NCBI RefSeq assembly: GCF_028069655.1
Contig: NZ_JAMCOS010000001.1
Location: forward strand, 4,742,001-4,806,000
DNA length: 64,000 nucleotides
Source of the DNA: Acidovorax sp. NCPPB 4044
Lineage (GTDB): Bacteria; Pseudomonadota; Gammaproteobacteria; Burkholderiales; Burkholderiaceae_C
Direction: 5' to 3'
Shown here: positions 7,622 to 51,001 of the stretch, in pieces
Layout: each line of letters begins with the position of its first letter
Numbering within the stretch: the first letter of the stretch is position 1
The notes under the pieces: model-generated
Seen by the model: the letters and a program-made list of their open reading frames with translations, nothing else
Database searches by the model: none
What the model was told of the DNA's origin: nothing
Position numbers and translations under genes: made by a program

Positions 7622-7652
7622 GCGATGTGATCCGAAATGAAAGTGTGAAAAG

Positions 7653-8680: not shown

Positions 8681-8740
8681 GCTACTTTATTGATAGCAAA
8701 CTATTGAATGGATCCGGCGGCATGGAGCATATTTCATGCC
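8681..8740. repeat. Dispersed intergenic repeat, copy 1
   Basis: Contains the core ATAGCAAACTATTGAATG, then GATC, then CGGCGGCATGGAGC, then a T-rich end and CATGCC. The core forms a small stem ATAG-CAAA-CTAT. Four other copies in the window share the same order of elements. This copy fills the gap between parA and the hydrolase gene and abuts the hydrolase start codon. Confidence 0.8.
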
Positions 8741-8791
8741 CAACCTTGCCGTGGAGGGCCCCCGGGGCACCCCCGGCGGCGCCGGGCCGGC

Positions 8792-9562: not shown

Positions 9563-9618
9563 GGGGAGAGAAGAAAGAGAGAAGCGGGAAAGACGGTGGT
9601 GGCAGCTCGCGTGCCGCG

Positions 9619-10233: not shown

Positions 10234-10263
10234 GAGCACCCCCCGGAAAATGGAAGCGGGAGT

Positions 10264-10959
10264 TTAAGCCAGCGGTTCGCTACGCGGCCGCATCCAGACG
10301 ATGCAGCGCTCCGCGTCCAGCCCCGGCACGGCCAGAGGTTCCACGTGGAACACATCCACCCCGGGCGGCAGCGCGGCGATCTCGTCGGCAGGGTGCCTGC
10401 CTTTCATGGCCAGCCACGTACCCCCCTCGGCCAGGGCCGATTGCGACCACGCGACGAAGTCCGGCAGCGATGCGAAGGCCCGGCAGCTCACCACGTCGAA
10501 CGGGCCGGCCAGGCTCTCCACGCGCGCATGGATGCCATGCAGGTTGCGCAGCCGCAGCGATGCCGCCGATTGCTGGATGAACGCCGCCTTCTTGGCCACG
10601 GTGTCCACGCAGCTCACGTCGAGGTCGGGGCAGCAGATGGCGAAGACCACGCCCGGCAGCCCTCCGCCAGAGCCCACGTCGAGCAGGCGGCGCACTGCGC
10701 CCGTGTGCGCGGCGCCCTGCTCCGCCAGATGCCGGCGCAACGGCGCGACGGCGGCCAAGCTGTCGAGCAGATGGTGCGTGAGCATCTCCTGCGGATCGCG
10801 CACGGCCGTGAGGTTGTAGACCTTGTTCCATTTCTGCAGCAGCGCGAGGAATTCGAGCAACTGCGCATGCTGCGCGTCGGAGAGCTGCAGGCCCAGGGCT
10901 GCGGCACCGTGGCGCAACGGGGCCGCCAGAGGCCCGGCATCCGGCAGGCCCGCGGTCAC
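10264..10959 (-). CDS. rsmG: 16S rRNA (guanine527-N7)-methyltransferase RsmG
   Basis: 231 residues, GTG start overlapping the mnmG stop by four bases (GTGA). Core sequence [20 protein letters not shown] and the SAM-binding [17 protein letters not shown] are diagnostic of RsmG (GidB), which methylates G527 of 16S rRNA using S-adenosylmethionine. It is encoded directly after mnmG, the conserved gid arrangement often found close to chromosome origins. A parS-like site lies within this gene. Confidence 0.97.
10337..10352. other. parS-like site 1 (inside rsmG)
   Basis: GGTTCCACGTGGAACA differs from the consensus TGTTTCACGTGAAACA at positions 1, 5 and 12 and keeps the CACGTG core and palindromic arms. 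It is a candidate ParB loading site, weaker than the perfect one at 11280. Confidence 0.6.
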
Positions 10960-12923: not shown

Positions 12924-13125
12924 GCAGTGGCTCCGGGGCCTCGGGAAGAGGGAGCGGCCCGATAGGGACAGGGCGCAGGCCGGGCCGCCGGCGGGCGCCT
13001 TGCCCGCGCCATCCGAAGGAGGCGCAGGCGGGAGGTTGGGGAAAGCCCGCGATTTTCCCACTTCGGCCCCGGGCGCGCCACTGCCGTGGCCGATTGCCCT
13101 GCCTGCAGGGTGTTTTGGCCCGCGT

Positions 13126-13141
13126 TGTTTCACGTGGAAGA
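13126..13141. other. parS-like site 3 (upstream of mnmG)
   Basis: TGTTTCACGTGGAAGA has a perfect left arm and CACGTG core, with two mismatches in the right arm (positions 12 and 15). It lies in the intergenic region between mnmG and the divergent FMN reductase gene. Confidence 0.65.
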
Positions 13142-13185
13142 CGGCTTGCAGGAATCCTGCCTGCGGGGTGTGCTGCAATCGCGCC

Positions 13186-13767
13186 ATGCCAAAACTCCTC
13201 GTTTTCGCGGGCAGCGCCCGCCAGCAATCCTTCAACCGCCGCCTGGCGCGCGCCACCGCCGACATCGCCCGCGAGGCCGGTGCGCAGGTCACGCTGCTGG
13301 AGCTGTCGGATTTCGACATCCCCTTCTACAACGCCGATCTGGAATCGCAGGGCACGCCGCCCGACGTGGTGCGCCTGAAGGAGATCCTGCACGCGCACCC
13401 GGCCTGGATCGTGTGCTCGCCCGAATACAACGGCAGCTACACCGCCCTGCTCAAGAACACCTTCGACTGGGCCTCCAGCCCGGTGGCCGGCCACCCCGTG
13501 TGGGGCGACGGCACCCTGCCCTTCCGCGGCAAGGTGGTGGGCATGCTGAGCGCCTCTCCGGGCGGGCTGGGCGGTCTGCGCTCGCAGGGCCACCTGGCGC
13601 CCCTGCTCGTCAATCTGGAGTGCTGGCTGGCCCCCAAGGCGTTCGCGCTGGGCCATGCGGGCAATGCCTTCGATGCGCAGGGCGCGCTCGTGGAGCCGGC
13701 CCACCGCGACCGCGTGCGCGCGGTGGTGGACCAGGTGCTCTGGGCCGGCCAGCGCCTGGCCGGCTGA
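13186..13767 (+). CDS. NADPH-dependent FMN reductase family protein
   Basis: 193 residues, flavodoxin-like. The N-terminal [18 protein letters not shown] contains the phosphate-binding GSxRxxSxN pattern of the NAD(P)H-dependent FMN reductase family (ChrR/YieF/ArsH relatives), and [21 protein letters not shown] is the second flavin-contact signature. It probably reduces free FMN, quinones or metal oxyanions with NADPH. It is divergent from mnmG and is followed 13 bp later by a YkgJ-like gene. Confidence 0.9.
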
Positions 13768-13780
13768 GGGCCGCGGCGGC

Positions 13781-14080
13781 ATGGGCCAGGAGTGCCGGGC
13801 AGGCTGCGGAGCCTGCTGCATCGCCCCCTCGATCAGCAGCCCCATCCCGGGCATGCCCGATGGCAAGCCGGCGGGTGTGCCGTGCGTGCAGCTCGATGCA
13901 GCGCTGCGCTGCAAGGTTTTCGGCCAACCCGGCCGGCCGGCCGTTTGCGCATCGCTGCAGCCCGGCACGGCGATGTGCGGGGACACACGGGAGCACGCCA
14001 TCGCATGGCTCGGCCGGCTCGAAGCCCTCACCGCGCCCGCCCGGGGATCGGACCGCCCACTGCCCCGCGCCGGCCCGTAA
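13781..14080 (+). CDS. YkgJ family cysteine-cluster protein
   Basis: 99 residues. The N-terminal [28 protein letters not shown] is characteristic of the YkgJ/CxxCxxCC zinc- or iron-binding-like cluster family (UPF0153). Further cysteines at CVQL, CKVF, CASL and MCGD give eight in total. The function of the family is unknown; metal binding is the usual suggestion. It probably shares a transcript with the FMN reductase gene upstream. Confidence 0.85.
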
Positions 14081-14113
14081 ACTGGGCGCTCCGCCACCGT
14101 CCAGAAAGCCGCC

Positions 14114-14584
14114 ATGCCACGCGAAGCCGAGTTTCAAGCCATTGCCCGGGAACTGGGCTACGACTTCAACGGAGAGATCAAGATCGGCGGCAATTACACG
14201 CCCACCGTGCGCCACGGCAGCGATGTCTATGTGAGCGGGCAGATCCCCCGCGTGGGCAACGAGGTGGTGGTCACGGGCCGTGCCGGCGGCGATGTTCCGC
14301 TGGCCGAGGCACAGCGCGCCGCCCGCATCTGCGCCATGCGCGCGCTCGCGCTGCTGCGGCAGACGCTGGGCTCGCTGGACCACGTCACGCGCCTGCTGCG
14401 CATCACCGTCTATGTACGCTCGGCCGAGGGCTTCACGCAGCAGAGCGAGGTGGCGGATGCCGCCTCCGACCTGCTGGTGCGCGTGCTGCAGGAAGCCGGC
14501 GCGCACACGCGCACGTCGGTCGGCGTGCTGGAGCTTCCCAAGGGCGCCACCGTCGAGATCGACCTGATCGCCAGCGCCTTGTAG
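14114..14584 (+). CDS. RidA family protein
   Basis: 156 residues. The C-terminal pattern TRTSVGVLELPKGATVEIDLIA and the GSDVYVSGQIPR stretch are those of the RidA/YjgF/Rid family, which hydrolyses reactive enamine/imine intermediates of PLP enzymes. The protein belongs to the longer subgroup (about 150 residues) often annotated as endoribonuclease L-PSP-like. It starts 34 bp after the YkgJ-like gene. Confidence 0.9.
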   Translation: MPREAEFQAIARELGYDFNGEIKIGGNYTPTVRHGSDVYVSGQIPRVGNEVVVTGRAGGDVPLAEAQRAARICAMRALALLRQTLGSLDHVTRLLRITVYVRSAEGFTQQSEVADAASDLLVRVLQEAGAHTRTSVGVLELPKGATVEIDLIASAL

Positions 14585-14673
14585 GCCGGCGTCGGCAACC
14601 CGGCCGTGCGGCAGCGCGAAAGCATGGTTCGCTATAGGATGCCGGGCTTGTCCACTGCCTTCAGAACCTGACC

Positions 14674-15282
14674 ATGAAGCTTTACTACAGTCCCGGTGCC
14701 TGCTCGCTTTCTCCCCACATCGCCCTGCACGAAGCCGGCCTGGCCTTCACCCCCGTGCTCGCCAGCACCAAGAGCCACAAGCTCCAGGACGGCACGGACT
14801 TCTACACGATCAACCCGCTGGGCTACGTCCCCCTGCTCGAACTCGACGACGGCACCCGCCTGCGCGAAGGCCCGGCCATCGTGCAGTACATCGCCGACCA
14901 GGCCCCCCTCAAGAACCTGGCCCCGGCCAACGGCACCCTGGCGCGCTACCGCCTGCAGGAGTGGCTGAACTTCATCAGCACCGAACTGCACAAGGGTTTC
15001 AGCCCCCTGTTCAACCCCGCCACGCCCGATGACTACAAGACCATGGCCCGCGAGAGGCTGTTGTCCCGCCTGCAATGGGTGGACGAGCAGTTCGCCGGCC
15101 GGGACTGGCTGCTGGGCGAGCATTTCAGCGTGGCCGACGGCTACCTGTTCACCGTGTGCGGCTGGGGCAAGCACGTGGGCGTGGACACTGCCCACCTGAA
15201 GAACCTGGGCGCCTATCTGGAGCGCGTCGGTGCCCGCCCTGCCGTGCAGAGCGCGCTCAAGGCCGAAGGCCTGCTGAAGTAA
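14674..15282 (+). CDS. Beta-class glutathione S-transferase
   Basis: 202 residues. MKLYYSPGACSLSPHIAL matches the beta-class bacterial GST N-terminus with the glutathione-contacting Cys10. The C-terminal helical domain contains LLGEHFSVADGYLFTVCGW. These enzymes conjugate or reduce with glutathione and act in detoxification or redox repair. An 89-bp gap with its own ribosome binding context separates it from the RidA gene. Confidence 0.93.
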   Translation: MKLYYSPGACSLSPHIALHEAGLAFTPVLASTKSHKLQDGTDFYTINPLGYVPLLELDDGTRLREGPAIVQYIADQAPLKNLAPANGTLARYRLQEWLNFISTELHKGFSPLFNPATPDDYKTMARERLLSRLQWVDEQFAGRDWLLGEHFSVADGYLFTVCGWGKHVGVDTAHLKNLGAYLERVGARPAVQSALKAEGLLK

Positions 15283-15619
15283 CGGCTCCGGGAGTGCGGA
15301 GCGCGGTGCGCTTCGCCTCTCACCTTGGCGGCGGGATGTTCCACGTGAAACGTTCCGCTGCTTCGGTTCCATGCGGTAGCTCTCGTCGGGTTGCGCCAGG
15401 CACGCGCTCCCGGCTCGACGGCCCGGCTGCCTAGCACAGCCCACCGCGGCAGGCTGACGCCTCTGCAGGCATTCCCCCGACGTCTCGGGTCTTGCGATGG
15501 CGCACTGCAACATCCGCCGATCCGGTTTAATTTCGATGCCGTGGCGCCCTGCAGGGTGCCTCCTGCCGCAGCGGCACCTCCCGCCCGGCAGCCAACGAAC
15601 CGCAAGGAAACCTCTGCCC
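15283..15619. other. Intergenic region carrying parS-like site 4
   Basis: 337 bp without a convincing gene. Its only recognisable element is the parS-like 16-mer at 15335-15350. The remainder is high-GC sequence with an AT-richer patch near 15526-15540 (GGTTTAATTTCGATG), a possible promoter -10 region for the downstream alkene reductase gene. Confidence 0.5.
15335..15350. other. parS-like site 4 (intergenic)
   Basis: TGTTCCACGTGAAACG keeps the CACGTG core and differs from the consensus at positions 5 and 16 only. It is the rightmost of four such sites and is the most distant from parB. Confidence 0.7.
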
Positions 15620-26168: not shown

Positions 26169-26204
26169 TGTTTCTGCCGCAGACGGAGAGGCTGTGGAGC
26201 GATC

Positions 26205-26227
26205 AAAGCTTGGGAACCCCAAGCTTT
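26205..26227. repeat. Perfect 10-bp inverted repeat at island boundary
   Basis: AAAGCTTGGG / CCCAAGCTTT separated by AAC. It has no T-run after it, so it is not an obvious terminator. It lies between the efflux terminator and a perfect 26-bp palindrome, at the entry to the AT-rich small-gene island. Confidence 0.7.
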
Positions 26228-26238
26228 ATGCAAGGCAT

Positions 26239-26264
26239 GACTGAAAGTCACGTGACTTTCAGTC
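26239..26264. repeat. Perfect 26-bp palindrome
   Basis: Arms GACTGAAAGTCAC and GTGACTTTCAGTC meet without a loop, with CACGTG at the centre. It is not a parS (flanks differ). It lies 30 bp upstream of the first small gene of the island, so it could be an operator for a dimeric regulator or a recombination remnant. Confidence 0.75.
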
Positions 26265-26293
26265 GAATCACGATATCTTCATTGCCTGATGCC

Positions 26294-26536
26294 ATGAGAA
26301 AAACCATCTGCATTTTTCTGGGATCCGCATGCGGCGTTGTATTGGCGGTATCGCTTTTCGCTGCTTATGGGTTTCTATTCGCCTCGCCGCATGGACGAGG
26401 GGAAGAGCACGCGATTTTCTGGACCAAGGTACTTTTTCTCGGAGTAATTCCATCAGGGGCAGTATTGGGTGCAATTGTGGTAGGCCAATGGGGGAAATTC
26501 TCGCAATCGGCCTGCAAAAATAACCTCTCAGTTTGA
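26294..26536 (+). CDS. Small membrane protein, unknown
   Basis: 80 residues starting MRKTICIFLGSACGVVLAV. Two hydrophobic segments (about 4-28 and 46-64) separated by a polar loop with HGRGEEH. No family recognised. Base composition is lower in GC than the flanking efflux genes. The start was chosen at the ATG preceding the first hydrophobic stretch; longer in-frame versions would include the palindromes. Confidence 0.5.
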   Translation: MRKTICIFLGSACGVVLAVSLFAAYGFLFASPHGRGEEHAIFWTKVLFLGVIPSGAVLGAIVVGQWGKFSQSACKNNLSV

Positions 26537-26742
26537 GATGGTGAGAGATTACCCATATGAAACTCATCATGAGAAATTGGTGACCATATTCTACCCCTGC
26601 CAAGTATTAAGAAAATTACGTAATCATCAATGAATTAAATTCAAATTCCAGATGACACATGAGGGTGCGTACGAACTGCATTTGAGCAAGAAATCCCCAG
26701 TGCCATCCTAAGCGTCTGAGCCAATAAAAAAGCAAGCTAAAC

Positions 26743-26964
26743 ATGCTTTATACGATAGCAGGTACATTTTTTTCGGGCATTATTTCATATTTTTTAGTAG
26801 AAATTCTATCCCGATGGTACGGATCGCGTTACATAAAATCCGACTCAGACATCAATGACGCTTACCTTTTTTCTCTAGCATTCATTTTATTTTTCTCGAT
26901 CGTAGGAGCGATATTTGGCTACCGCACAGGAAGAAGAAAAACCAGCAATAAATTGAATGGCTAG
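26743..26964 (+). CDS. Small two-helix membrane protein, unknown
   Basis: 73 residues, two membrane helices (about 4-22 and 42-59), a charged central loop with WYGSRYIKSDSD and a basic tail YRTGRRKTSNK. Strongly AT-rich codon use. Its 3' end overlaps the LprI-like gene by eight bases, suggesting co-expression. No family recognised; a partner of the LprI-like protein is possible. Confidence 0.55.
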   Translation: MLYTIAGTFFSGIISYFLVEILSRWYGSRYIKSDSDINDAYLFSLAFILFFSIVGAIFGYRTGRRKTSNKLNG

Positions 26965-27445
26965 TCTTATAAATAATAAAAACAGTCGCTTTGACGCACT
27001 TGCCCAAAAAAAGAAGTTTTTCACCTATGTCTTTATGACTTCTTTTGCAGCATGCGCCTCTGCCGCGTCTCCCCCCGCGTCTATAAGCCCATATGCACTG
27101 CGCGAAGAATGCAGCGCGTTTTCCCAAGCAGGAATGCATGACTGCCTTGCGAAAAAGGCCGCGAGCAGTCAGAAAGAGTTGCGGCAAGCGGAAGAAAGGG
27201 CCACCGACACCCTCTCGAAATGGGACGAGGACGGCAAATATGTCAGCCAGTCCAAATCCAGGCTCGCCACATCCATCAAGGATTTTTCCAAATACCGCGA
27301 TACCCAATGCGATTTCCAGGCTTCGCTGAGCGGTGGCGGTGCCGGCAACTCACGTGAGATCGGGCGTCTGGCTTGCGTTTCCGAACTCAACTACGTTCGC
27401 GCAAGGCAATTGCTCGAAGCGGTCAATGACTTGCCTCTGAAGTAG
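26957..27445 (+). CDS. LprI-like (DUF1311) cysteine-rich exported protein
   Basis: 162 residues with a hydrophobic export-type N-terminus (FFTYVFMTSFAACASAA). The mature part has four spaced cysteines (Cys52, Cys63, Cys118, Cys140), a central Trp89 and a Gly-rich turn (SGGGAG), the pattern of DUF1311/lysozyme-inhibitor LprI family proteins. Relatives bind or inhibit lysozyme, or act as periplasmic immunity-type proteins. It overlaps the upstream small membrane-protein gene and closes the AT-rich island. Confidence 0.7.
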   Translation: MASLINNKNSRFDALAQKKKFFTYVFMTSFAACASAASPPASISPYALREECSAFSQAGMHDCLAKKAASSQKELRQAEERATDTLSKWDEDGKYVSQSKSRLATSIKDFSKYRDTQCDFQASLSGGGAGNSREIGRLACVSELNYVRARQLLEAVNDLPLK

Positions 27446-32405: not shown

Positions 32406-32511
32406 AACTCAGCAAAAACCCAACGGCCGATGCCGCGCATCGCCGGCGGGCCCCGGCGTCGCAATGTCATGGGAATCTCTAAACTCCGCTGCATCCCACC
32501 TCACTGTCGCC

Positions 32512-34146
32512 ATGCCCACTTCTCCTGCCCAACTCCAGCAATGGCTGATCGAACCCGAAGGCCGACGCCTGGAGTTCAAGGAGGCCAAGCAGCGCTACGA
32601 CTTCGAGAAGCTGCTCAAGTACTGCGTGGCTCTGGCCAATGAAGGCGGCGGCACCATGGTGCTGGGTGTGACGGACAAGCGGCCACGGCGCATCGTAGGT
32701 TCGCTGGCCTTCGAAGCGCCGGAACGCGCGGAGGCAAGCTTGCACCAACGGCTGGGGCATCGCATCCCGGTCGAAGAACTCCATTTGCCCGAGGGGCGTG
32801 TGGTGATCGTGCATGTCCCTGCCCGACTGCCGGGCACGGCATGGGAGATTGGCGGTCAATATTTCAAAAGGGCGGGTGACGACCTCGTTGCATTGAAGGG
32901 GCCGGAGCTGCGCGAGATCTTTTCCGAGACCGGACCAGACTTTTCAGCCCAACCCTGCCCCGGTGCCACGTTGGCGGATCTGGAGTCCGATTCCATCGCG
33001 CTGTTTCGCGAGCGCTGGGCCAAAAAGGGCGGCGACTTGCGCAGACTCGACCTGAGCGATCAGCAGACGCTGCGCGATGCCGAACTGCTGGTGGAGGGCG
33101 ATCAAGTGAGCTATGCCGCACTCATCCTGTTTGGCACGCGCGCGGGCCTGACCCGGTGGCTGGCCCAGGCTGAACTGGTGTTCGAATACCGCTCGTCCGA
33201 AGCTGCGGGGCCGGCAGCCGATCGGGAGGAATACCGCGCAGGCTTTTTTGCTTGGCAAGACGCCCTGTGGAAAAAGATCACCCAGCGCAACGACCGGCAA
33301 AGCTACCAGGACGATTTCTTTCGCATGGATCTGCCCACTTTCGACGAGGTGCCCGTGCGCGAGGCCATCCTGAATGCGGTGGCCCACCGGGACTACCGTC
33401 TGGGCGGTTCGATCTTCGTGCGGCAATTTGCCAAGCGGCTGGAGGTGGTGAGCCCGGGGGGGCTGCCACCTGGCATCACACCCGAGAACATCATCGACCA
33501 ACAAAATCCGCGCAATCGCCGCTTGGCCGAGGCCCTTGCGCGCTGCGGATTGATCGAGCGTTCAGGCCAGGGCCTGAACCTGATGATGGAAAGCGCCGTG
33601 CGCCAGGGCAAACCCTTGCCCAGCTTTGCAGGCACCGCTGCGCACGAGGTGCGGCTCACACTGGAGGGCGGCATTCGCAACCCGGCATTTGTGCGGTTCA
33701 TGGAGCGGCTGGGAGAAGAGAGACTGCGCAGCTTTTCAACGCTCGACTATCTGGCACTGGAACGCCTGGAGCAGGACCGGCCCTTGACTCCTGAACTGCA
33801 GGAACGCCTGCCCACACTGGCAGAGGCGGGTGTGGTGGAAGTGATGGGCCGGGGAAAGACTGCCAGGTACATGCTTGCAGCCGCGCTGTATGCGACGCTG
33901 GGCAGCAGAGGCACCTACACCCGAAAAAGGGGCCTGGACCATGGCACCAACAAGGCTCTGTTGTTGCAACACCTCAAAGACCAAGGCGGAGAGGGGGCAC
34001 CACTCAGTGAATTCCGCCAGGTGCTGCCCTCGCTCACCATCAAGGCGGTGCAAAAGCTGCTGGATGAGTTGCGCAATGACGGATTGATATACGTCGTTGG
34101 CCAGAGACGCTGGGCTCGCTGGCATCTGGCAGATGGGGTTGTTTAA
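32512..34146 (+). CDS. AlbA_2/Schlafen-type ATP-binding protein
   Basis: 544 residues. The N-terminal LEFKEAKQRYDFEKLLKYCVALANEGGGTMVLGV is the AlbA_2 (Schlafen AlbA) domain. The middle region carries the histidine-kinase-like ATPase signature VREAILNAVAHRDYRLGGSI with GLIERSGQGLNLMM (HATPase_c_4). The C-terminus is winged-helix-like. Such proteins are called transcriptional regulators or ATP-dependent DNA helicase RecG-related and often lie in accessory or defence regions. It is isolated here, with less GC-biased codon use than the copper genes. Confidence 0.85.
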   Translation: MPTSPAQLQQWLIEPEGRRLEFKEAKQRYDFEKLLKYCVALANEGGGTMVLGVTDKRPRRIVGSLAFEAPERAEASLHQRLGHRIPVEELHLPEGRVVIVHVPARLPGTAWEIGGQYFKRAGDDLVALKGPELREIFSETGPDFSAQPCPGATLADLESDSIALFRERWAKKGGDLRRLDLSDQQTLRDAELLVEGDQVSYAALILFGTRAGLTRWLAQAELVFEYRSSEAAGPAADREEYRAGFFAWQDALWKKITQRNDRQSYQDDFFRMDLPTFDEVPVREAILNAVAHRDYRLGGSIFVRQFAKRLEVVSPGGLPPGITPENIIDQQNPRNRRLAEALARCGLIERSGQGLNLMMESAVRQGKPLPSFAGTAAHEVRLTLEGGIRNPAFVRFMERLGEERLRSFSTLDYLALERLEQDRPLTPELQERLPTLAEAGVVEVMGRGKTARYMLAAALYATLGSRGTYTRKRGLDHGTNKALLLQHLKDQGGEGAPLSEFRQVLPSLTIKAVQKLLDELRNDGLIYVVGQRRWARWHLADGVV

Positions 34147-36544: not shown

Positions 36545-36617
36545 GCCATCCAGCGGGGGCGCGAAGGGGCCGCGGCGCGAAAAGGTGCCCGCTGCCCCCT
36601 CGCCGGCACCCGTTAAT

Positions 36618-36680
36618 TTGCTATTATTTATATAGCAAACTATTCAATGGAATAGCCGGCATGACCGGCTTTTCACTTAT
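36618..36680. repeat. Dispersed intergenic repeat, copy 2
   Basis: TTTGCTATTATTTATATAGCAAAC folds as a stem (in two parts: TTTGCTAT and ATAGCAAA), then CTATTCAATG, then AGCCGG CATGA CCGGCT followed by TTT, which here makes a terminator-like hairpin. It overlaps the 3' end of the DUF3297 gene. In this copy the conserved ATG is followed by a stop codon after one residue. Confidence 0.8.
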
Positions 36681-36921
36681 AGAACGCCTCCACGGCGCCC
36701 TTGAGGGTGATCATGAGCGGCCGGCCCTTGCGGTCCACCGTCTTGCCGGCAGGCACCTTGATCCAGCCCTCGCTCACGCAGTATTCCTCCACGTCGAAGC
36801 GCTCCTTGCCGTTGAAGCGGATGCCGATGTCGTGCTCGAACACGGCAGGCAGGTGGAACTTGCTGCGCGGGTCGATGGAGAGGTGGTCGGGGAGTTCGGG
36901 GCGCTGAGAATGGTCAGTCAT
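36673..36921 (-). CDS. DUF3297 family protein
   Basis: 82 residues: PELPDHLSIDPRSKFHLPAVFEHDIGIRFNGKERFDVEEYCVSEGWIKVP is split here only for recognition; the family signature is the early DHLSIDPRSKFH and the late GWIKVPAGKTVDRKGRPL. DUF3297 is a small conserved proteobacterial family of unknown function with no signal peptide. It is divergent from the STM2901-type gene across a 92-bp AT-rich gap. Confidence 0.85.
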   Translation of the reverse strand: MTDHSQRPELPDHLSIDPRSKFHLPAVFEHDIGIRFNGKERFDVEEYCVSEGWIKVPAGKTVDRKGRPLMITLKGAVEAFYK

Positions 36922-37013
36922 GGTTTCTTTATTAAAAATCTGAACAGAAAATCAAATGATCAAGCCGGGTTATTGAGCGATTGGTAATTCGGTAACGGAT
37001 AAAAGAGCGCGAT

Positions 37014-37442
37014 TTGTCCAACACCTACGCCTACCGCGATCTCACCGGGCTTTCAGCTGAGGAATTGTTTCTTTGGATAGCGATTGATCAGACACTGGAG
37101 CAATTGGGTGGGGCAGACATCGCCGCTGCGGCAGCGGTCCTTTCAGGACAGCCATTTCTTCCGACAAGGGGTAAATTCGGAGGAGCCACCAAGGGCACAT
37201 CGCTCGCTTCGGTGGTGTCAAGAAGCATGCTGCAGCAACGAATGCCTTTCGCCTTGCCCACTATCACAGGCGCAAGCCTCAGAACACTCAAAATAACATT
37301 TACCCGAAATCTGGGAGCTTTCGTGGGCCGCCTGGTGCCAGGGGTCGGATGGACCGTATTGGCATACGATGTTTTTCAAATCATCAATCAATCCGTGACG
37401 ATCTATAACTCTCTTGCAAAGAAGGAAGACCGACTATGGTAG
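37014..37442 (+). CDS. STM2901 family protein
   Basis: 142 residues. LTGLSAEELFLWIAIDQT and LSGQPFLPTRGKFGGATKG are signatures I associate with the STM2901 family. A hydrophobic C-terminal hairpin (LVPGVGWTVLAYDVFQII) could insert in membranes. The TTG start has AAAAGAG upstream. It overlaps the DUF1493 gene by seven bases. GC content is well below the neighbours. It is probably one half of a two-gene toxin/immunity-like module; biochemical function unknown. Confidence 0.7.
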   Translation: MSNTYAYRDLTGLSAEELFLWIAIDQTLEQLGGADIAAAAAVLSGQPFLPTRGKFGGATKGTSLASVVSRSMLQQRMPFALPTITGASLRTLKITFTRNLGAFVGRLVPGVGWTVLAYDVFQIINQSVTIYNSLAKKEDRLW

Positions 37443-37807
37443 CCGCCTCTTCAGAACTATGGCGAGAACTGGTTGAGCTTGCTTCGGGTGTCGATTCCAT
37501 GGGGTTTCGTCATATCGGGAAAAAGATCGAATACACGCCCCATACCGATCTGGTGAAAGACTTGGGCCTGACGGGGGACGATGCTTTCGATTTCATGGAG
37601 AAATTCGCTTCAAAGTTCACGGTGGAAAAAGGCGATTACAGCTCGTCGGATTATTTCGGCCCGGAGGGACTGAATATTTTCTCTTTTTTCAAAAAAGACA
37701 AACCCACGATGCCGATCACCTTGGGAATGCTTTTCTTGGCTGCCCGCTCGGGTATCTGGAATAGAGAGCTGCTTCAACAGGCATACAACCACCAAAACTA
37801 CGAATGA
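37436..37807 (+). CDS. DUF1493 family protein
   Basis: 123 residues, acidic, soluble. Contains YTPHTDLVKDLGLTGDDAFDFMEKFASKF, the acyl-carrier-protein-like DxxxDLGLxGDDA pattern of DUF1493, but the Ser of a phosphopantetheine site is replaced by Asp/Ala. A GAAGGAAG ribosome binding site lies within the upstream gene. Co-occurrence with STM2901-family genes suggests a dedicated partner or immunity protein. Confidence 0.75.
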   Translation: MVAASSELWRELVELASGVDSMGFRHIGKKIEYTPHTDLVKDLGLTGDDAFDFMEKFASKFTVEKGDYSSSDYFGPEGLNIFSFFKKDKPTMPITLGMLFLAARSGIWNRELLQQAYNHQNYE

Positions 37808-42470: not shown

Positions 42471-43466
42471 TCAGAACGGCGCGTCGTCGTCGTCCGCCCC
42501 GGCGGTGGCGGCAGCGGCAGCCGTTGCCGAGGAAGGCGCATCGGCGCGGCCGCCCGGCACGGCGGCGGGGCCGTCCAGGCCGGTGCGCCCCTCGCCGCCC
42601 AGCGCCTCGACCAGGTCCGGGATCATCTTGGAGAGCTCGCCCGTGGCGATCGCCACGTCGGTGTCGAAGCCGCTGTCGTCCTGGCCCCGGCCCTCGAACA
42701 CCGTGTCGAGGAACGACACCTTCTTGATCTGCAGCCCTTCGGTGAGCACGAAGGCGACGCGGTCGTCCCAGCTCATCGCGAGCTTGGTGGGCAGCTTGCC
42801 GGCGGCGATGTGCTCGCGGATCTCGTCGATGTCGAGCGGGTGGCGGGCATAGCGCACCACGGCCTTGGATTCGTCGGCGCTCTTCAGTTCACACTCGCGG
42901 TCCACGCTGAAGCCCACGGGGGGCTCCTGCTCCTTGAGCCAGTGCGCCATCGCGGCCTGCGGCGCGGTCTGCGTGTCCACCAGCGAGACCGACAGGCCCG
43001 GCAGCGCTTCCACCAGCAGGGTGACCACCTCGTCGGCGCGGCCCTGGCTGCCGGTGTCCAGCACCAGCAGGCGCGCCTCGGGATCGATCCAGACCCACAT
43101 CGAGCCCTGCTTCGTGAAGGCCATGGGCAGCAGGTCGAGCTTGGCCTCGTCCTTCAGGTCGCGGGTTTCCTTCTTGCCGGGCTTGCGGCCGGTCTCGCGC
43201 TCGATGCGCGCGGCCTTTTCCTTGACCCGGCGCGCCAGCACCGAGCCCGGGAGCATCTTGGATTCGGCCATGAAGCGCAGGATCCAGTGCCCGCCCACCG
43301 ATTCGGCGAGCGCGCCGTGGGCATCGCCGCGGGGCGGGACCCAGCCGACGGATTTTTCCTGGGTGGCGCCGCATTCCACGAACGGGGTGCGGGCCAGGGC
43401 TTCTTCGAGTTGCGGCAGCTCCGCATGCCATTCGGCGATGCGGTAGACGATCATGTTCTTGAACAC
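42471..43466 (-). CDS. rdgC: Recombination-associated protein RdgC
   Basis: 331 residues. Starts with GTG and FKNMIVYRIAEWHAELPQLEEALARTPF, the RdgC N-terminus; TKQGSMWVWIDPEARLLVLDTGSQGRADEVVTLLV-type segments in the centre are conserved. RdgC is a ring-shaped dsDNA-binding protein that limits RecA activity. The C-terminal ~40 residues are Ala/Asp-rich and variable. AAGGAATCC on the minus strand is the ribosome binding site and decides the GTG start. Confidence 0.95.
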   Translation of the reverse strand: MFKNMIVYRIAEWHAELPQLEEALARTPFVECGATQEKSVGWVPPRGDAHGALAESVGGHWILRFMAESKMLPGSVLARRVKEKAARIERETGRKPGKKETRDLKDEAKLDLLPMAFTKQGSMWVWIDPEARLLVLDTGSQGRADEVVTLLVEALPGLSVSLVDTQTAPQAAMAHWLKEQEPPVGFSVDRECELKSADESKAVVRYARHPLDIDEIREHIAAGKLPTKLAMSWDDRVAFVLTEGLQIKKVSFLDTVFEGRGQDDSGFDTDVAIATGELSKMIPDLVEALGGEGRTGLDGPAAVPGGRADAPSSATAAAAATAGADDDDAPF

Positions 43467-44435: not shown

Positions 44436-44510
44436 TGCCAGCCATGACAGGCGGCCGCTGCTGACGCGGTTGCCGCCTACATGGAGGCTCCCAGACCCTG
44501 TCCTACAGTG

Positions 44511-44531
44511 GGTTACACGGATTGTGTAACC
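44511..44531. promoter_or_regulatory. Inverted repeat upstream of pagL
   Basis: GGTTACAC / GTGTAACC with a GGATT loop, 33 bp upstream of the start codon. TGTCCTACAGTG precedes it. It could be an operator or a leader hairpin; there is no T-run, so it is not a clear terminator. Confidence 0.5.
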
Positions 44532-44564
44532 TCACGGTCGCGTACAAAACTGGGAATTCACAAC

Positions 44565-45152
44565 ATGCCTCATCCATTCACGAAGCGCTCCCGCGCCGCC
44601 CTGGCGGCCCGGAGCGCTTTTTTCATGCTCGCCGCCACGGCCGCCCTGGGCGTCCAGGCACAGACCGCCAACGCCCTGACCCCATCGGTCTACGTCCAGG
44701 GAGGCTGGGCCGAGCACCAGACCGACTCCGCCACCGTGGGCGTCACCCTGCCCTGGGCCTCCTGGCGCAGCGAACTCCTGGGCCACGAAGTGCGCGGCTA
44801 CTGGGACATCTACGCCAGCCGCTGGTCGTTCGACGCGGTGCCGGGCGGCGCGAGCCACACCACGCTGGTCGGCGTGACGCCCACCTTCCGCCTGCGCCCC
44901 GACAACGGCCGCTCGGCCTTCTTCTGGGAAGGCGGCATCGGCGTGACCTACATGGACAAGCGCTTCCACACGCCCGAGAAGGAATTCAGCACCCGCTACA
45001 ACTTCGCCTCCCACCTGGGCCTGGGCTACAGCCTGGGCGCCCAGCGCGAGCATGAAGTGATGGTGCGCGTGCAGCACCTCTCCAACGCCGGCATCAAGAA
45101 GCCCAACCCGGGCGACAACTTCCTCCAGGTGCGCTACGCGTACCACTTCTGA
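44565..45152 (+). CDS. pagL: Lipid A 3-O-deacylase, PagL family
   Basis: 195 residues with a Sec signal ending GVQAQTA. The mature protein is an eight-stranded outer-membrane barrel. The C-terminal RVQHLSNAGIKKPNPGDNF carries the His171/Ser173 catalytic pair of PagL, and the protein ends in the aromatic YAYHF expected for barrel assembly. It removes the 3-O acyl chain from lipid A. A terminator follows 37 bp after the stop. Confidence 0.88.
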   Translation: MPHPFTKRSRAALAARSAFFMLAATAALGVQAQTANALTPSVYVQGGWAEHQTDSATVGVTLPWASWRSELLGHEVRGYWDIYASRWSFDAVPGGASHTTLVGVTPTFRLRPDNGRSAFFWEGGIGVTYMDKRFHTPEKEFSTRYNFASHLGLGYSLGAQREHEVMVRVQHLSNAGIKKPNPGDNFLQVRYAYHF

Positions 45153-45188: not shown

Positions 45189-45212
45189 AGCCCCGCACCG
45201 CGGGGCTTTTTT
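45189..45212 (+). terminator. Rho-independent terminator of pagL
   Basis: AGCCCCGC / GCGGGGCT with an ACC loop (45189-45207), followed by TTTTT. It separates pagL from the origin-like region. Confidence 0.93.
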
Positions 45213-45415
45213 GTGCCCGCTCCATCCGGTACCCGCCGCCTTCGCGGCGGCACTCCTGTGGATAACGCTGGGGATGCTTCGGGAGCAACTGCCCACTTAT
45301 CCACAGCCGCTGGCCGATGGCCGAAGTTGTTATCGCCGGCCGCGCGCCGTCACCCGACCTTCCACCACAGGGTTCGGCGCACCCCAAGTCCGCGCCGGCA
45401 CTGGGAAAAAGCCGC

Positions 45416-45466
45416 TTGTCCACACGAAGGGGGTGCCCTTACTACTATTCCTATGGATTGATAAAA
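45416..45466 (+). other. Unwinding-element-like segment, module A
   Basis: DnaA box TTGTCCACA, a 14-nt spacer with GGGGG, then TTACTACTATTCCTATGG, then GATTGATAAAA. The complementary strand of ACTACTATTCCTAT reads as successive DnaA-trio-like triplets. Confidence 0.65.
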
Positions 45467-45715
45467 GCCTTAGAGGAATAACAGAACATCCGGATCCAGG
45501 GCGCCTCGGGGGGCTGGGCAAAGCGAGAGGCACCGTTTCCCCGGCTGGATGGAGACGGTGGCGGCGATCGGGTCATGAAAAGAGAGGCGGCCTGGGGCGC
45601 GCTGGCGGACACCGGCCGGGCCGGTGCGGGCACTTTTCGGGGCCGGGCCGCCGCGCCATGGAGCGCCCGGGCCGGATCCACGGCATCCGGGAATGAAGTG
45701 CACTCTCGCCATTCG

Positions 45716-45772
45716 CTACATTTTTAATAGCAAACTATCGAATGAATCCGGCGGCATGGAGGGCTTTTCATG
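45716..45772. repeat. Dispersed intergenic repeat, copy 4 (between origin modules)
   Basis: TTTTTAATAGCAAACTATCG, AATGAATC, CGGCGGCATGGAGGGC, TTTTCATGC. It has one base change in the core (CTATCG for CTATTC). It lies in the ~320-bp spacer between the two DnaA-box modules. Confidence 0.8.
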
Positions 45773-45956
45773 CTGAATCCGTGCCAGACGCCCCTTCAAG
45801 GACAAGTCTGGGGACATTTCCCGCACAACCGGGCGCTTGTCCACAGCGGCAGCCCCTTTCCCGGATTTGTCCCCGCCGGACGGACAGCGGCAACCCCCTC
45901 CCACCCACAGGGTTGGCGTGCAGCCAAGTCCCTTGTCGCGCAACGGAAAAACCCGG

Positions 45957-46006
45957 TTGTCCACAGAACGGGGCGGTGCTTACTACTACGACTATGTTTT
46001 TATAAA
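45957..46006 (+). other. Unwinding-element-like segment, module B
   Basis: DnaA box TTGTCCACA, a 14-nt spacer with GGGGCGG, then TTACTACTACGACTATG, then TTTTTATAAAG. Its layout and distances match module A; the AT-rich end is longer, so B may be the active unwinding site. Confidence 0.68.
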
Positions 46007-46299
46007 GACATCAAGAAGAAAACAGGAGAACAGCGCCGGGGCACACGGGCAGGACGGACGTGCATCCGCCCGGCAGGGGCTGCCAGGCAGAGGCATCGCA
46101 AAGGGATCGGCTTCCGCGGGATTTGCACGGTGGTGGGGGCCAGGGCCCTGGAGAAAGCCACACGGGGGCCGTGGAGGGCCTGCAAGGCACTGCCTGAGGG
46201 GGAGCAGTGGGGTGAAGGGTTCGGCGCGGAAAGGCGCTCTGACGGCGGCGGGCCTGGCCCTCCCTCGCCTGCTCGGCCGGACCTAGGCCGGCCGGGCGG

Positions 46300-49200
46300 T
46301 CAGGCCGCGGATGGCCGGGCGTCCGCCAGGAAGGTTTCCAGCGCCGCCACGGGCAGCGGCCGGCTGAAGAAGTAGCCCTGGTAGGCGAGGCAGCCCGCGC
46401 GCTCCAGCCGCTCGCGCTGCTCGGCGGTCTCCACGCCCTCGGCGATCACGTCCAGCCCGAGGCTGCGCGAGAGCGCGATGATCGTGTCCACGATGGCCGC
46501 GTCGTTCGGGTCGGTCAGCAGGTCGCGCACGAAGCTCTGGTCGATCTTGAGCTGGTCGAGCGGCATGCGCTTGAGGTAGCTGAGCGACGAGTAGCCGGTG
46601 CCGAAGTCGTCCAGCGAAAAGCCCACGCCATGCGCGCGCAGCGCCGACATGGTGGCGATGGTGGTTTCCATGTCCTCGACGAACAGGCTCTCGGTCAGCT
46701 CCAGCTTGAGGCGGGCGGCCGGCGCGCCGGTCGTGGCGATGGCGCGCACCACGTCGTCCACGAAGGCCTCGTGGTGGAACTGGCGCGAACTCACGTTCAC
46801 TGCCATGCCGAGGTGCGCCCGGCCGGGCTCGCCCTGCCAGCGCGCGAGCTGGGCGCAGGCCGTGTGGAGCACCCAGCGGCCCAGCGGCAGCACGAGGCCG
46901 GTCTCCTCGGCCAGCGGGATGAATTCGCCGGGCGAGACCAGGCCGCGCTGCGGGTGCGGCCAGCGCACCAGCGCCTCGACACCGGTGACGCGGCCCTGGT
47001 GGTCCACCTGCGGCTGGTAGTGGAGCGCGAACTGCTCGCGCGCCAGGGCGGTGCGCAGGTCGTTTTCCAGTTCGGCGCGCGCCGTGACCACGGCCTGCAT
47101 GCCGGGGTCGAAGAAGCGCAGCGTGTTGCGGCCCGCGGTCTTGGCCTGGTACATGGCCAGATCGGCCTGCTTGAGCAGCTCGCCCACGGTGGTGGTGCGC
47201 GCATCGCTGAACGGCGCCACGCCGATGCTGGGCGTGCTGCGGTAGTGGTAGCCCTGCAGCACGTAGGGGGTGGCCAGCACCGCCAGGATCTTCTCGCCCA
47301 CGGTGCGGGCGCTCATGGCCAGCTCTTCGGGGCGCGCGCTCAGGGCTTCGATCATCACCACGAACTCGTCGCCGCCCAGGCGGGCCACGGTGTCCACCGA
47401 GCGCACGCAGGTGTTCAGGCGCGCGGCCACCTGCTGCAGCAGCACGTCGCCCTGGTCGTGGCCCAGGGTGTCGTTGAGGGTCTTGAAGTTGTCCAGGTCG
47501 ATGAACAGCAGCGCGCCGCCCTGGCGGCGCCGCTGCGCCGTGGCCAGCGCCTGGCGCATGCGGTCCATGAGCAGCATGCGGTTGGGCAGGCCGGTGAGCG
47601 AGTCGTAGAACGCGAGCCGCTGGATCTCGCGCTCGGTGGCCTTGCGCTGCCCGATGTCGGTGTTGATCGCGAGGATCGCGTCCGGCTGGCCCTGCTCGCC
47701 CTTCACGAGCGTCCAGCGGCCTTCCACGTCCAGGCGGCGCCCGTCGCGGTGGAACTGCACGATCTCGCCGGTCCACTCGCCCTGCTTGCGCGTCGTGCCG
47801 GTCGCGCGCAGGAATTCCTGGGCGTCCTGGTAGAGCAGCGTGGCGATGGACTGGCCAGTCGCCTCCTCGCGCTTCCATCCGTAGAGGCGCTCGGCGCCTT
47901 CGTTCCAGAAGGTGATGCGGTGGTCGAGGTCGCGCACGATGATCGCGTCGCGCGCCTTGTCCAGCAGCGAGGCCTGGCGGCGGATGTGCGCGTCCGAGGC
48001 CTGGCGCGCCATCTCGGCCGCGGCCCGCGCCGCGAAGATGCGCAGCGTGGACACCACCATGCCCGGCTGCTGCAGGGGCTCGCGGAAGACGACGAAGATC
48101 AGCCCGATGGCCCGGCCGTCGGTGTCGCGCAGCTGCAGGCCCACATAGGCCTGCGCGCCCAGCCGCGCCACGGGCGATTGCGGGTACAGCTCCGAGACGC
48201 CGTGCGGGATCACGCATTCGGATTCGTTCACCAGGCGCAGGCTCGGCGTGCCTTCCAGCCCATACTCGGCATTGGGCTGGACCACGCCCTCCTCCACGCG
48301 CGAGAGCGTCACCGCGCGCGGCAGCTGCCCCGCCGGCTGCGGCAGCAGCCGCGTGACGCAGCCGGCCTGCGCGCCCAGCGCGTCGCACATGTGGCTGGCC
48401 AGCTGCTTGAAGAACTGGGTGCCGGTGCTGGCCGACACGGCGGCCGCGGCCTTGAGCACCACGGCCTGCAGGCGCTGCTGGTCCTGGCGCGTGCGCAGGC
48501 TGCCCAGCCCGAAGGCGATGTCGTTGGCGAGCTGCTGGAGCAGCTCGGCCTCCTCGGCGCCGGTCTCCAGCACCGTCTCGGGATAGAGGGTGAGCAGGCC
48601 GAACACCTGCTCGGCATCGCGCAGCGGCAGGCTGATGACGGCCGGCAGGCCCAGTTGCGCGAGCGGCCGCGCCCATACGTCGGCCAGGGGCGCGCGCTGC
48701 ACGTCGTGCACGATCACGGGCCGGCCGCTGCGCAGCGCCTCGCCCGAGGGGCCGGGGCTGTGCGGCGTCCAGGGAGCGCCCGGGGTGCCGATGGGGCGCA
48801 GCGTCTCCACGCCCACGGCGGTCAGGCCCGACCAGGCCACGGGCTCGATGCTCTGGCGCTCGGCCCCCGCGGCATTCCAGCGGCGCACCATGCCCACCCA
48901 GGCACTGCGGAACCCGCCCACCTCGCGGGCGATGCGGCACACCTCCGAGAGCAGCGCCGCCTCGCCGGTGGCGCGCACCAGCGCCTCGTTGCAGGCGCTC
49001 AGCAGCCGCTGCACCGTGCCCACGCGCACCAGCTCGCGCTCCACGCGCATGCGCTGGGTCACGTCGGTGGCCAGCACCTGGCGGGCCGAAAGGCCATTGA
49101 AGGTGATGTCGCCCGCGTACACCTCCATGTCGAGGAAGGTGCCGTCCTTCTTGACGTGGCGGCGGTGGACCGCGTCGCGCCGCACGCCCGGCGGCAGGGC

Positions 49201-50814
49201 GCGTGCCTCGATCTCGTTGGCGGCCCGGTCCTCCTCGGGCCAGAACTGCACGGTGGTCATGCGCAGCAGCTCGGCCTCGCTGTAGCCGTAGTGGCGCACC
49301 ATCGCCCGGTTCACGGCCAGGATGCGCAGGCTGCCGCGCTCGTAGACCCACATGGGCTGGGGATGGGCGTCGAAGAGCGCGCGGTACTGCTGCTCGGACG
49401 CGCTCAACTGCGCCGCGTAGCTGCGCAGCTGCAGCACCGCGCCCAGCGATTCGGCCAGGATCTGCACATAGGCCACGTGGCGCTGCGAGAACGTGAACAG
49501 CGGATCGGCGTTCACCTTGAGCATGCCCAGCACGGTCTCGCCCGCGCGCAGCGGCGCGGCGACGAAGGACAGCGCGCCGTGCCGGCCGCCGTCGGTGGCC
49601 ATCGAGGCATGGGCCAGCGAATGCTTGCCGTCGCCGTGCAGCACCGTCTCGCCCGATTCGAGCTGGTGCCACAGCGGGTAGCCGAGCACGGGCCGGACCT
49701 CGTGCAGCGGAGCGGCGTGGCGGCCGATGCTCGCGCGCACGCGCAGCCGGTCGCCCTCGCGCAGCACCACCATCGCGCCGTGCGCATCCGCCAGGTCCAT
49801 GGCCGTGCGCGCCACCAGCTGCAGCACCTCGTCCAGCGGCAGGTCGGGCGCGCTCATGCGCTGCTGCACGCGCACCAGCTCGGCATGGGCGCTCGCGTCG
49901 CGCTGGGCCTGCAGCGCGCTCTGCTTCTGGGCGCTGATGTCGGTCATGCCGCCCACCATGCGCACGGCCAGGCCCTCGTCGTCGCGGATCACGAAGCCGC
50001 GGTCGCGCACCCAGGCGTAGCTGCCGTCCTGGCGGCGGAAGCGGTATTCGTCGGTCCAGTGGCGCGCCGTGCCCTCGATGGCCGAGTGGATGCCCTCCAG
50101 CACCATGTCGCTGTCGTCGGGGTGCAGGCGCTGGGTCCAGGAGGTGCTGTCGTGCGGCAGCGTCTGCAGCGGCACGCCGAAGAGCGTCTCCATGCCCTCG
50201 TTCCACCACATCGAATCGTCGGTGAGGTTCCAGTCCCAGATCGCATCGGCCGTGGCGCGCGCCACGAGGTGGAAGCGCTCCTCGGAGAGCGCGCGGTCCT
50301 GCGCCCGGCGGGCCATGCTGCGGCGCTGGCGGCGCACTTCCAGCAGCGCCATCGCCTGCCCGGCGATGGCCTGCAGGGCTTCCAGCTGCGCGCCCTGCAG
50401 GGTGCGCGGTGCGGTGTCCATCACCACCACGGCGCCCAGCACCAGCCCTTCGGCGGTGGCGAGCGGCATGCAGGCGGCCATGCGCACGCGCGGCGGCCCC
50501 AGCACCAGCGGATGGTCGCGCAGCACGGGGTGGGTGCTGGCATCCCGCACCTGCGCCAGCCGGCCGTCCTGCGCCAGCGCGCAGAGCGCATGCGCTCCGG
50601 CCAGGTGCTGCAGCGACGCGACCGGCATGCCGGCGCTGGCCTTGAACCACTCGCGGTCGGCATCCACGAAGCCGATGGCCGCCAGCGGCGCGCCGCACAG
50701 GTGCGCGGCCAGCCGGGCGAGCTGGTCGAAGGACTCTTCGGTGGCGGTATCGAGGACGGCGCACGCATGCAGCGCGTCCAGGCGCCGGCAGACAGAGTCC
50801 GAAAGGGCGCCCAT
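46300..50814 (-). CDS. Multi-sensor diguanylate cyclase/phosphodiesterase (GAF/PAS/GGDEF/EAL)
   Basis: 1504 residues, soluble. The order is GAF (about 10-165), PAS/PAC (about 190-310; WDWNLTDDSMWWNEGM), GAF (about 345-480), PAS (about 495-615), two more GAF-like regions (to about 940), PAS (about 950-1060; IIVRDLDHRITFWNEGAERL), GGDEF (about 1070-1235, intact ARLGGDEFVVMIE) and EAL (about 1245-1495, GVEALVRW and DDFGTGYSSLSYLKRMP). Both catalytic motifs look complete, so synthesis and breakdown of c-di-GMP are both possible. The start at MGALSDSVC was chosen because the upstream in-frame residues are Pro/Ala/His rich. Confidence 0.92.
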   Translation of the reverse strand: MGALSDSVCRRLDALHACAVLDTATEESFDQLARLAAHLCGAPLAAIGFVDADREWFKASAGMPVASLQHLAGAHALCALAQDGRLAQVRDASTHPVLRDHPLVLGPPRVRMAACMPLATAEGLVLGAVVVMDTAPRTLQGAQLEALQAIAGQAMALLEVRRQRRSMARRAQDRALSEERFHLVARATADAIWDWNLTDDSMWWNEGMETLFGVPLQTLPHDSTSWTQRLHPDDSDMVLEGIHSAIEGTARHWTDEYRFRRQDGSYAWVRDRGFVIRDDEGLAVRMVGGMTDISAQKQSALQAQRDASAHAELVRVQQRMSAPDLPLDEVLQLVARTAMDLADAHGAMVVLREGDRLRVRASIGRHAAPLHEVRPVLGYPLWHQLESGETVLHGDGKHSLAHASMATDGGRHGALSFVAAPLRAGETVLGMLKVNADPLFTFSQRHVAYVQILAESLGAVLQLRSYAAQLSASEQQYRALFDAHPQPMWVYERGSLRILAVNRAMVRHYGYSEAELLRMTTVQFWPEEDRAANEIEARALPPGVRRDAVHRRHVKKDGTFLDMEVYAGDITFNGLSARQVLATDVTQRMRVERELVRVGTVQRLLSACNEALVRATGEAALLSEVCRIAREVGGFRSAWVGMVRRWNAAGAERQSIEPVAWSGLTAVGVETLRPIGTPGAPWTPHSPGPSGEALRSGRPVIVHDVQRAPLADVWARPLAQLGLPAVISLPLRDAEQVFGLLTLYPETVLETGAEEAELLQQLANDIAFGLGSLRTRQDQQRLQAVVLKAAAAVSASTGTQFFKQLASHMCDALGAQAGCVTRLLPQPAGQLPRAVTLSRVEEGVVQPNAEYGLEGTPSLRLVNESECVIPHGVSELYPQSPVARLGAQAYVGLQLRDTDGRAIGLIFVVFREPLQQPGMVVSTLRIFAARAAAEMARQASDAHIRRQASLLDKARDAIIVRDLDHRITFWNEGAERLYGWKREEATGQSIATLLYQDAQEFLRATGTTRKQGEWTGEIVQFHRDGRRLDVEGRWTLVKGEQGQPDAILAINTDIGQRKATEREIQRLAFYDSLTGLPNRMLLMDRMRQALATAQRRRQGGALLFIDLDNFKTLNDTLGHDQGDVLLQQVAARLNTCVRSVDTVARLGGDEFVVMIEALSARPEELAMSARTVGEKILAVLATPYVLQGYHYRSTPSIGVAPFSDARTTTVGELLKQADLAMYQAKTAGRNTLRFFDPGMQAVVTARAELENDLRTALAREQFALHYQPQVDHQGRVTGVEALVRWPHPQRGLVSPGEFIPLAEETGLVLPLGRWVLHTACAQLARWQGEPGRAHLGMAVNVSSRQFHHEAFVDDVVRAIATTGAPAARLKLELTESLFVEDMETTIATMSALRAHGVGFSLDDFGTGYSSLSYLKRMPLDQLKIDQSFVRDLLTDPNDAAIVDTIIALSRSLGLDVIAEGVETAEQRERLERAGCLAYQGYFFSRPLPVAALETFLADARPSAA

Positions 50815-51001
50815 GGTCAGCGCGCCGGCCCGCGGCACGGGGTCCGGCGCCCCGGGCGGGGCGGTGTCGGAAGCGGTGGCGGCGGCACCTGCATGGTGGG
50901 GGGTGGAAGGGATGGGGTGGCGTGGACGCGCCACCCGTGCCGGGGCAGCACGGGCAGGCGCGGATGTTTCCGAATGCTACACCGGCCCACCCGCCGACCG
51001 G

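Follow-up and report, generated by a model that had tools for sequence, protein, structure and literature searches.

The non-coding DNA between pagL and a GGDEF-EAL gene in this genome is very probably the chromosomal oriC. Its DnaA boxes are arranged as two tandem, co-oriented modules, each of which carries, in the same order, a DnaA box, ~119 nt of intervening DNA, a second box, a 14-nt spacer, a series of DnaA-trios and an unstable AT-rich stretch. The dnaA gene itself is found ~45 kb away. Judging from sequence comparison, this oriC most likely moved away from dnaA and was duplicated. This placement rests on the anatomy of the site, which is both unique in the genome and conserved, and on a skew break at this type of module in relatives.

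The window, i.e., the whole 64-kb stretch of DNA that was analysed, corresponds to C1:4742001-4806000, on a contig of 5.26 Mb. It encodes an RdgC protein 97% identical to its counterpart in Paracidovorax konjaci, and the host is thus a Paracidovorax-type bacterium (family Comamonadaceae). Scanning the 64-kb window for Rfam families and tRNA genes gave no matches.

Organization of the two modules

The gap extends from the end of pagL (44481-45152, plus strand; Pfam PagL, 1.1e-31) to the GGDEF-EAL gene identified by domain annotation (46300-50838, minus strand). The initial annotation had described it as a gene-free region bordered by a c-di-GMP gene, and codon-usage gene calling indeed places no gene inside, though the mechanical ORF list shows open frames there (e.g., 45211-45696 and 45770-46375, both on the plus strand). 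The GC content of this interval is 61%, compared with 70% across the window. Five DnaA boxes of the form TTRTCCACA are present in the gap, as had been counted before, and they represent the entire complement of the window, while 100 shuffles yielded 0.15 on average and never more than one. The first two (45257-45265 and 45297-45305) are perfect copies of TTATCCACA. A cluster of boxes beyond chance (five against 0.15 expected), located between called genes, is what characterizes an oriC. A chance origin of the box pattern was rejected on the basis of the shuffles and of reversed-pattern controls.

A repeat search of the window revealed a 62-nt direct repeat, 76% identical, whose copies are 541 nt apart. 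Both copies contain the DnaA box TTGTCCACA, 14 nt, TTACTACTA and two further triplets ending in CTA, followed by the AT-rich stretch. The trios and the grouping of the boxes into two repeated modules are additions to the initial annotation.

Module 1 as a whole (boxes, spacer, trios and AT-rich stretch) spans 45257-45490 on the plus strand and is matched by our sequence model R1 with 53.2 bits at 45411-45481. It starts with the inverted TTATCCACA box (45257-45265, minus strand), an element specific to this unit, at -151 from the unwinding box. The second perfect box (45297-45305, plus strand) lies at -119; a plus-strand box at -117 to -121 is found in 74 of 91 modules. The unwinding box TTGTCCACA (45416-45424, plus strand) is followed, after a 14-nt GC-rich spacer, by the trios TTA CTA CTA TTC CTA (45439-45453, plus strand) and by an AT-rich stretch (45454-45490), a probable DNA unwinding element (DUE).

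Module 2 spans 45796-46023 on the plus strand (model R1, 62.3 bits at 45953-46022). The place of the inverted box is occupied by a CTGGGGACATTT..CGCACAA element (45808-45828, plus strand), which is conserved in an alignment of seven loci. The partner box TTGTCCACA (45837-45845, plus strand) is located at -120, a conserved spacing, and the unwinding box, again TTGTCCACA, at 45957-45965 (plus strand). The 14-nt GC-rich spacer, the trios TTA CTA CTA CGA CTA (45980-45994, plus strand) and a second probable DUE (45995-46023) complete the unit.

The AT-rich segments reported in the initial annotation proved to be very unstable. Taken as 50-nt stretches including the trios, they rank among the least stable 0.12% (module 1) and 0.09% (module 2) of the window positions, so that by sequence an AT-rich unwinding element, as known from oriC regions, is present; with 80-nt positions they are less special (1.4% and 1.7%). 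The box-trio arrangement matches the basal unwinding system (BUS), which is defined by a DnaA box with at most two mismatches, a spacer of at most 16 nt and at least three trios with a central A on the lower strand (PMC8287927). Here, the box deviates from TTATCCACA by one mismatch, the spacer is 14 nt long and trios occur in both modules. The central T on the top strand is found in all five triplets of module 1 and in four of five in module 2, the first three being consecutive. No directly adjacent tandem box was seen among boxes of the TTRTCCACA form.

The spacer between the modules (45491-45795) is not conserved. It harbors, at ~45710-45785, a copy of a dispersed AT-rich repeat with a ATAGCAAACTATNNAATG core, of which the window contains five copies, all on the plus strand (the others at 8693, 36632, 43629 and 60156). 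This copy has at least 40 other matches in the genome.

Uniqueness of the site, dnaA and GC skew

In the ~5.3-Mb genome, the pattern TTRTCCACA-N5..20-TACTACTA has two matches, one per module, and the reversed control gave zero. The same pattern is present in 43 of 200 family genomes, with controls of zero in every case. Model R1, which covers 73 positions, was derived from 42 copies including both window copies and was thus partly built from loci on which it was later used. After the two module copies, the highest scores in the window are those of the two partner boxes (9.1 and 7.9 bits).

As the initial annotation had stated, dnaA and rpmH are absent from the window. The dnaA gene was located at C1:4832776-4834197, ~45 kb to the right of the module, with rpmH adjoining it (read by eye), also outside the window. 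Like in E. coli-type chromosomes, the oriC module is therefore not beside dnaA. The previously noted parAB and mnmG-rsmG genes were confirmed as an origin-proximal partition region (parB, parA, rsmG and mnmG; 6683-15352, minus strand), in which a site search identified four parS-like sites (10337-15352). These sites, one of them perfect, are positioned in and around rsmG-mnmG, 30-35 kb from the module. The mnmG (gidA) gene is the direct neighbor of an E. coli-type oriC; here, it ends 32 kb to the left of the module. Closer to the site lies rdgC (42471-43466, minus strand; Pfam RdgC, 3.5e-106), the neighbor of the module in relatives. Elsewhere in this window of 70% GC, AT-rich stretches at 26200-27050 and 36600-37700 perhaps represent acquired DNA, and 32464-34146 encodes a protein with Schlafen AlbA_2 and RecG-C-terminal-like HATPase domains.

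A competing origin at dnaA had been suggested as a point to verify. In that arrangement, the working origin would be located beside dnaA and the pagL-side cluster would be a DnaA-titrating or regulatory site, similar to datA or DARS. One TTATCCACA is indeed found upstream of dnaA at C1:4834264, with CTATCCACA just before it on the other strand (by eye). However, even at an E value of 10, model R1 finds no match in the 14 flanking stretches that include dnaA (280 kb, 6 kb of it overlapping), and the complete trios and AT-rich stretches of the pagL-side site would be unnecessary for titration. We regard such an arrangement as very improbable.

The skew of the genome itself agrees with an origin in this part of the chromosome but does not place it. 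In 20 coarse 20-kb samples, the GC skew is negative at 4.59 Mb and has become positive at 4.86 Mb; the reverse change of sign takes place between 1.89 and 2.43 Mb; two of the 20 oppose the pattern (4.05 Mb, slightly positive, and 5.13 Mb, slightly negative). The cumulative skew has three minima of similar depth. One, at 4787424, falls inside module 1; the others lie at 4828850 and 4859714, and that at 4859714 is slightly the deepest of the three. A one-break fit performs best at 4.860 Mb with a 5-95% bootstrap range of 4.806-4.888 Mb, which covers dnaA, in favor of an origin on that side, and excludes the module. At the module site itself the fit is better than at dnaA (SSE 520243 against 529303). 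The third-position skew has its minimum at 4823347 and the intergenic skew at 4774556, and the gene-strand bias gave no signal in the 338 kb of this genome examined. Skew-type measures over these 338 kb were rejected as an origin locator, since they result in a broad plateau (4.774-4.86 Mb) or in no signal. The motif GGGNAGGG, which we take to be KOPS-like by analogy with E. coli, has forward/reverse counts of 11/36 to the left of the module, 5/6 between the module and dnaA and 20/12 to the right of dnaA, which fits either site. A search for dif with a presumed E. coli-like core, allowing at most two mismatches, yielded zero matches.

Because the skew of this genome is indecisive, relatives with a distant dnaA were used as a natural experiment. 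Five genomes in which 100-260 kb separate dnaA from the module were analysed over 400 kb around both. They were picked for large separation and long contigs from a set of qualifying genomes that also contains G079, G114, G149, G170, G177, G189 and others. The best single skew break lies within 3 kb of a module in all five and at dnaA in none. In G018, the break at 2510000 compares with modules at 2495910 and 2507367 and dnaA at 2628100; in G147, the break is at 4516000, the modules at 4504508 and 4515756 and dnaA at 4615750. G072 has its break at 395000 (modules at 394700 and, by the model, 398822; dnaA at 135100), G200 at 2794000 (modules at 2782169 and 2794065; dnaA at 2975200) and G022 at 241000 (modules at 235472 and 238577; dnaA at 50100). 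The module tested fits better than dnaA in each of the five, and the bootstrap range excludes dnaA each time, although these ranges are wide (G072, 234-431 kb; G022, 153-311 kb). Cumulative minima fall 0.8-5.4 kb from a module. The skew proposed as a check in the initial annotation thus points to the module in the relatives (5/5), whereas the genome itself shows three similar minima, one of them in module 1, and a fit range without the module.

One observation in the relatives favors the dnaA side, namely a second, shallower skew dip in G200 near 3.0 Mb, 25 kb past dnaA. The polarity of GGGNAGGG, counted in G022, G072 and G200 among the five, switches cleanly at the module in G022 alone; in G072 the excess of forward sites begins ahead of the module, and the sites in G200 are too few to tell. 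That two origins are active, one on the dnaA side and one at the module site, appears extremely improbable. Double origins have been predicted in Ralstonia pickettii 12D, at dnaA and hemE, 291 kb apart (PMC4403523), but this genome has no unwinding module at dnaA and the best skew break of the relatives is the module site and not dnaA. Taken together, the uniqueness of the pattern, the empty 280-kb flanks and the skew of the five relatives support the earlier proposal of an origin separated from its initiator gene. A mobile or plasmid origin was rejected in view of the linkage to rdgC across genera and of the skew break in relatives.

Conservation and copy number of the module

Alignment of seven Paracidovorax-type loci (the window and six others), starting ~265 nt upstream of the first unwinding box and ending 345 nt downstream of the second, reveals two conserved blocks of ~230 nt each, at ~45250-45490 and ~45795-46020. 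Between them, the identity is near zero, and little is conserved after them. Among 59 named rdgC loci, 47 have the module: 42 carry two, one carries three and four carry one. Within a locus, the modules are always on one strand. The members of a pair are 326-635 nt apart in 33 of the 42 pairs and 3.3-11.9 kb apart in nine, and in these nine the modules flank rdgC on either side. The 12 loci without a module include two short contigs (L087 and L096) and three from genomes whose other rdgC locus has the module (L098, L120 and L122). These three are the second rdgC loci of their assemblies, paired as L077/L120, L084/L098 and L099/L122. In locus L055 (G150:C21:448-565), the trio array is much expanded, with many CTA repeats after the DnaA box.

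In the wider family, model R1 matches 143 of 200 genomes, 48 of them with two or more matches, and finds no match in the other 57 at an E value of 1e-4. Module positions were listed for 111 genomes, of which at least 34 have two or more modules. The module is located just past dnaA in 28 of these 111, elsewhere on the same contig in 43 (8-264 kb from dnaA) and on a contig other than that of dnaA in 28, dnaA being unlisted in the remaining 12. In the 28 near-dnaA genomes, it follows the DnaA AAA+ domain at a distance of 0.65-0.8 kb, which places it at the end of dnaA. In 27 of them, it is a single match on the strand of dnaA. The sole module on the opposite strand is that of G159 (C1:2591194-2591250), a genome with a second match. 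By eye, the near copies of G080, G100 and G184 run into a dnaN-like start. None of the 34 genomes with at least two listed modules belongs to the near-dnaA group.

Neighboring modules on one contig share the strand in 32 of 34 pairs, one of which (G150, 76 nt apart) is a single expanded trio array counted as two matches. The two opposite-strand pairs are G162:C1:48936(-)/95516(+) and G044:C55:68950(+)/72870(-). G004:C1 has three modules on one strand (40052, 49252 and 69327), spaced 9.2 and 20 kb, at 39-68 kb from dnaA, and in G121 one copy is found on either side of contig ends. In a sample of 60 genomes from the order, eight match the model (two from this family), several of them weakly, down to an E value of 7e-5, and 52 have no match. 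A location far from dnaA is seen in two genomes of family f8, with two modules each, and in two of f5, with one each; in f18 and f19 (one genome each), a module lies ~0.7 kb past dnaA. Relocation may thus have preceded the family or have taken place more than once.

A tree of the copies shows two large groups of loci, and inside each of these most first modules cluster apart from the second ones; supports are modest, and there are several exceptions. Within each group, the duplication is thus probably older than the divergence. The starting point would have been a single module just beyond dnaA, which would then have moved beside rdgC and been duplicated before the present genera diverged.

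Whether both copies are used can be weighed on the same data. One module might open the DNA, the other being a relic or an accessory DnaA-binding sub-region like oriC1 of H. pylori; we give this somewhat less than an even chance. Known bipartite origins have two box clusters and one DUE (PMC4285127). A single match is found at four of the 47 module-bearing rdgC loci and in 95 of the 143 matching family genomes, the latter count under strict filters that lose weak matches. The two copies are also not equivalent: at paired loci, 36 of 42 first modules have the inverted box (-150 to -154), compared with 10 of 42 second modules when a looser range is allowed, which hints at a division of labor. 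In three relatives, 11-12 kb separate the modules; the second one is each time the closer to the skew break, though every range also covers the first. Against a single working module, the trios and the AT-rich end are intact in both copies at all seven aligned loci, and 43 of the 47 module-bearing rdgC loci keep two or three modules on one strand, whereas a relic would be expected to decay. Participation of both modules in initiation seems to us fairly probable.

Proposed mechanism and comparison with known origins

At this oriC, DnaA would bind both boxes of a module, which are perhaps bridged, given that the partner box keeps a fixed offset of 119 nt. From the second box, DnaA might extend over the GC-rich spacer onto the trio strand, by analogy with BUS work, and the AT-rich stretch would then melt, allowing the helicase to be loaded. 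A bolder form, in which two homologous, co-oriented and complete modules would each be competent to melt DNA and load helicase, is rather doubtful. If true, it would be, to our knowledge, the first natural origin with two working DUEs. Such pairs have spacings of 0.3-12 kb at the named loci, and one pair in G004 is spaced 20 kb. One module per fork or a timing device might, tentatively, be the use of such a pair; being co-oriented, the modules are not simply mirror images serving two forks.

The position of dnaA is often used to place origins, a rule that fails by up to ~260 kb in the family genomes examined. GC-skew plots anchored at dnaA, as well as copy-number and growth-rate estimates, would be shifted. 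The relatives include genomes with one module, two close ones, two distant ones or a module near dnaA and constitute a series for the study of origin movement. The same series is useful for asking about the role of a second unwinding site, which bears on the loading of two helicases at one origin.

An origin away from dnaA is not unusual in itself, E. coli being a named example (PMC4285127). The location may already have been predicted for a relative: an Ori-Finder origin is marked in a figure for A. citrulli M6 (PMC6595937), and DoriC may list it as well. Among the open-access papers listed by our searches, we recognised no doubled unwinding module or rdgC-side origin in this family. The relocation is of a known kind, whereas two complete unwinding modules in one origin seem to be new, and the doubled module is the stronger point.

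With the BUS of the B. subtilis and H. pylori oriC, the site shares the box, the GC-rich spacer of at most 16 nt, the trios (3'-GAT-5', CTA on the top strand) and the AT-rich stretch (PMC8287927; PMC8235120). It differs by its two complete tandem units, by the partner box ~119 nt upstream and by not being beside dnaA. Two DnaA-box sub-regions in one origin are also a feature of the bipartite oriC of these species (PMC4285127). Here, however, both sub-regions have trios and an AT-rich stretch, so that by sequence there is more than a single probable DUE; moreover, bipartite origins have a gene as spacer, usually dnaA, whereas the spacer is non-coding here, with dnaA 45 kb away, and distant pairs flank rdgC.

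Like the E. coli-type oriC, the site is tens of kb from the initiator gene, in a non-coding gap (PMC4285127). Its neighbors are rdgC, pagL and the GGDEF-EAL gene, in contrast to E. coli, with mnmG 32 kb away, and its trios are strong while those of E. coli are weak or scattered (PMC8287927, PMC8235120). More than one origin-like region per chromosome is also known from the putative double origins in DoriC, such as those of R. pickettii 12D, and from the two autonomously replicating elements of P. aeruginosa (PMC4403523). It is a possibility, from our analysis, that double-origin cases of the R. pickettii type are relocated single origins. In comparison with R. pickettii, where 291 kb and different gene contexts separate the two predicted origins, the modules described here are homologous, co-oriented and 541 nt apart.
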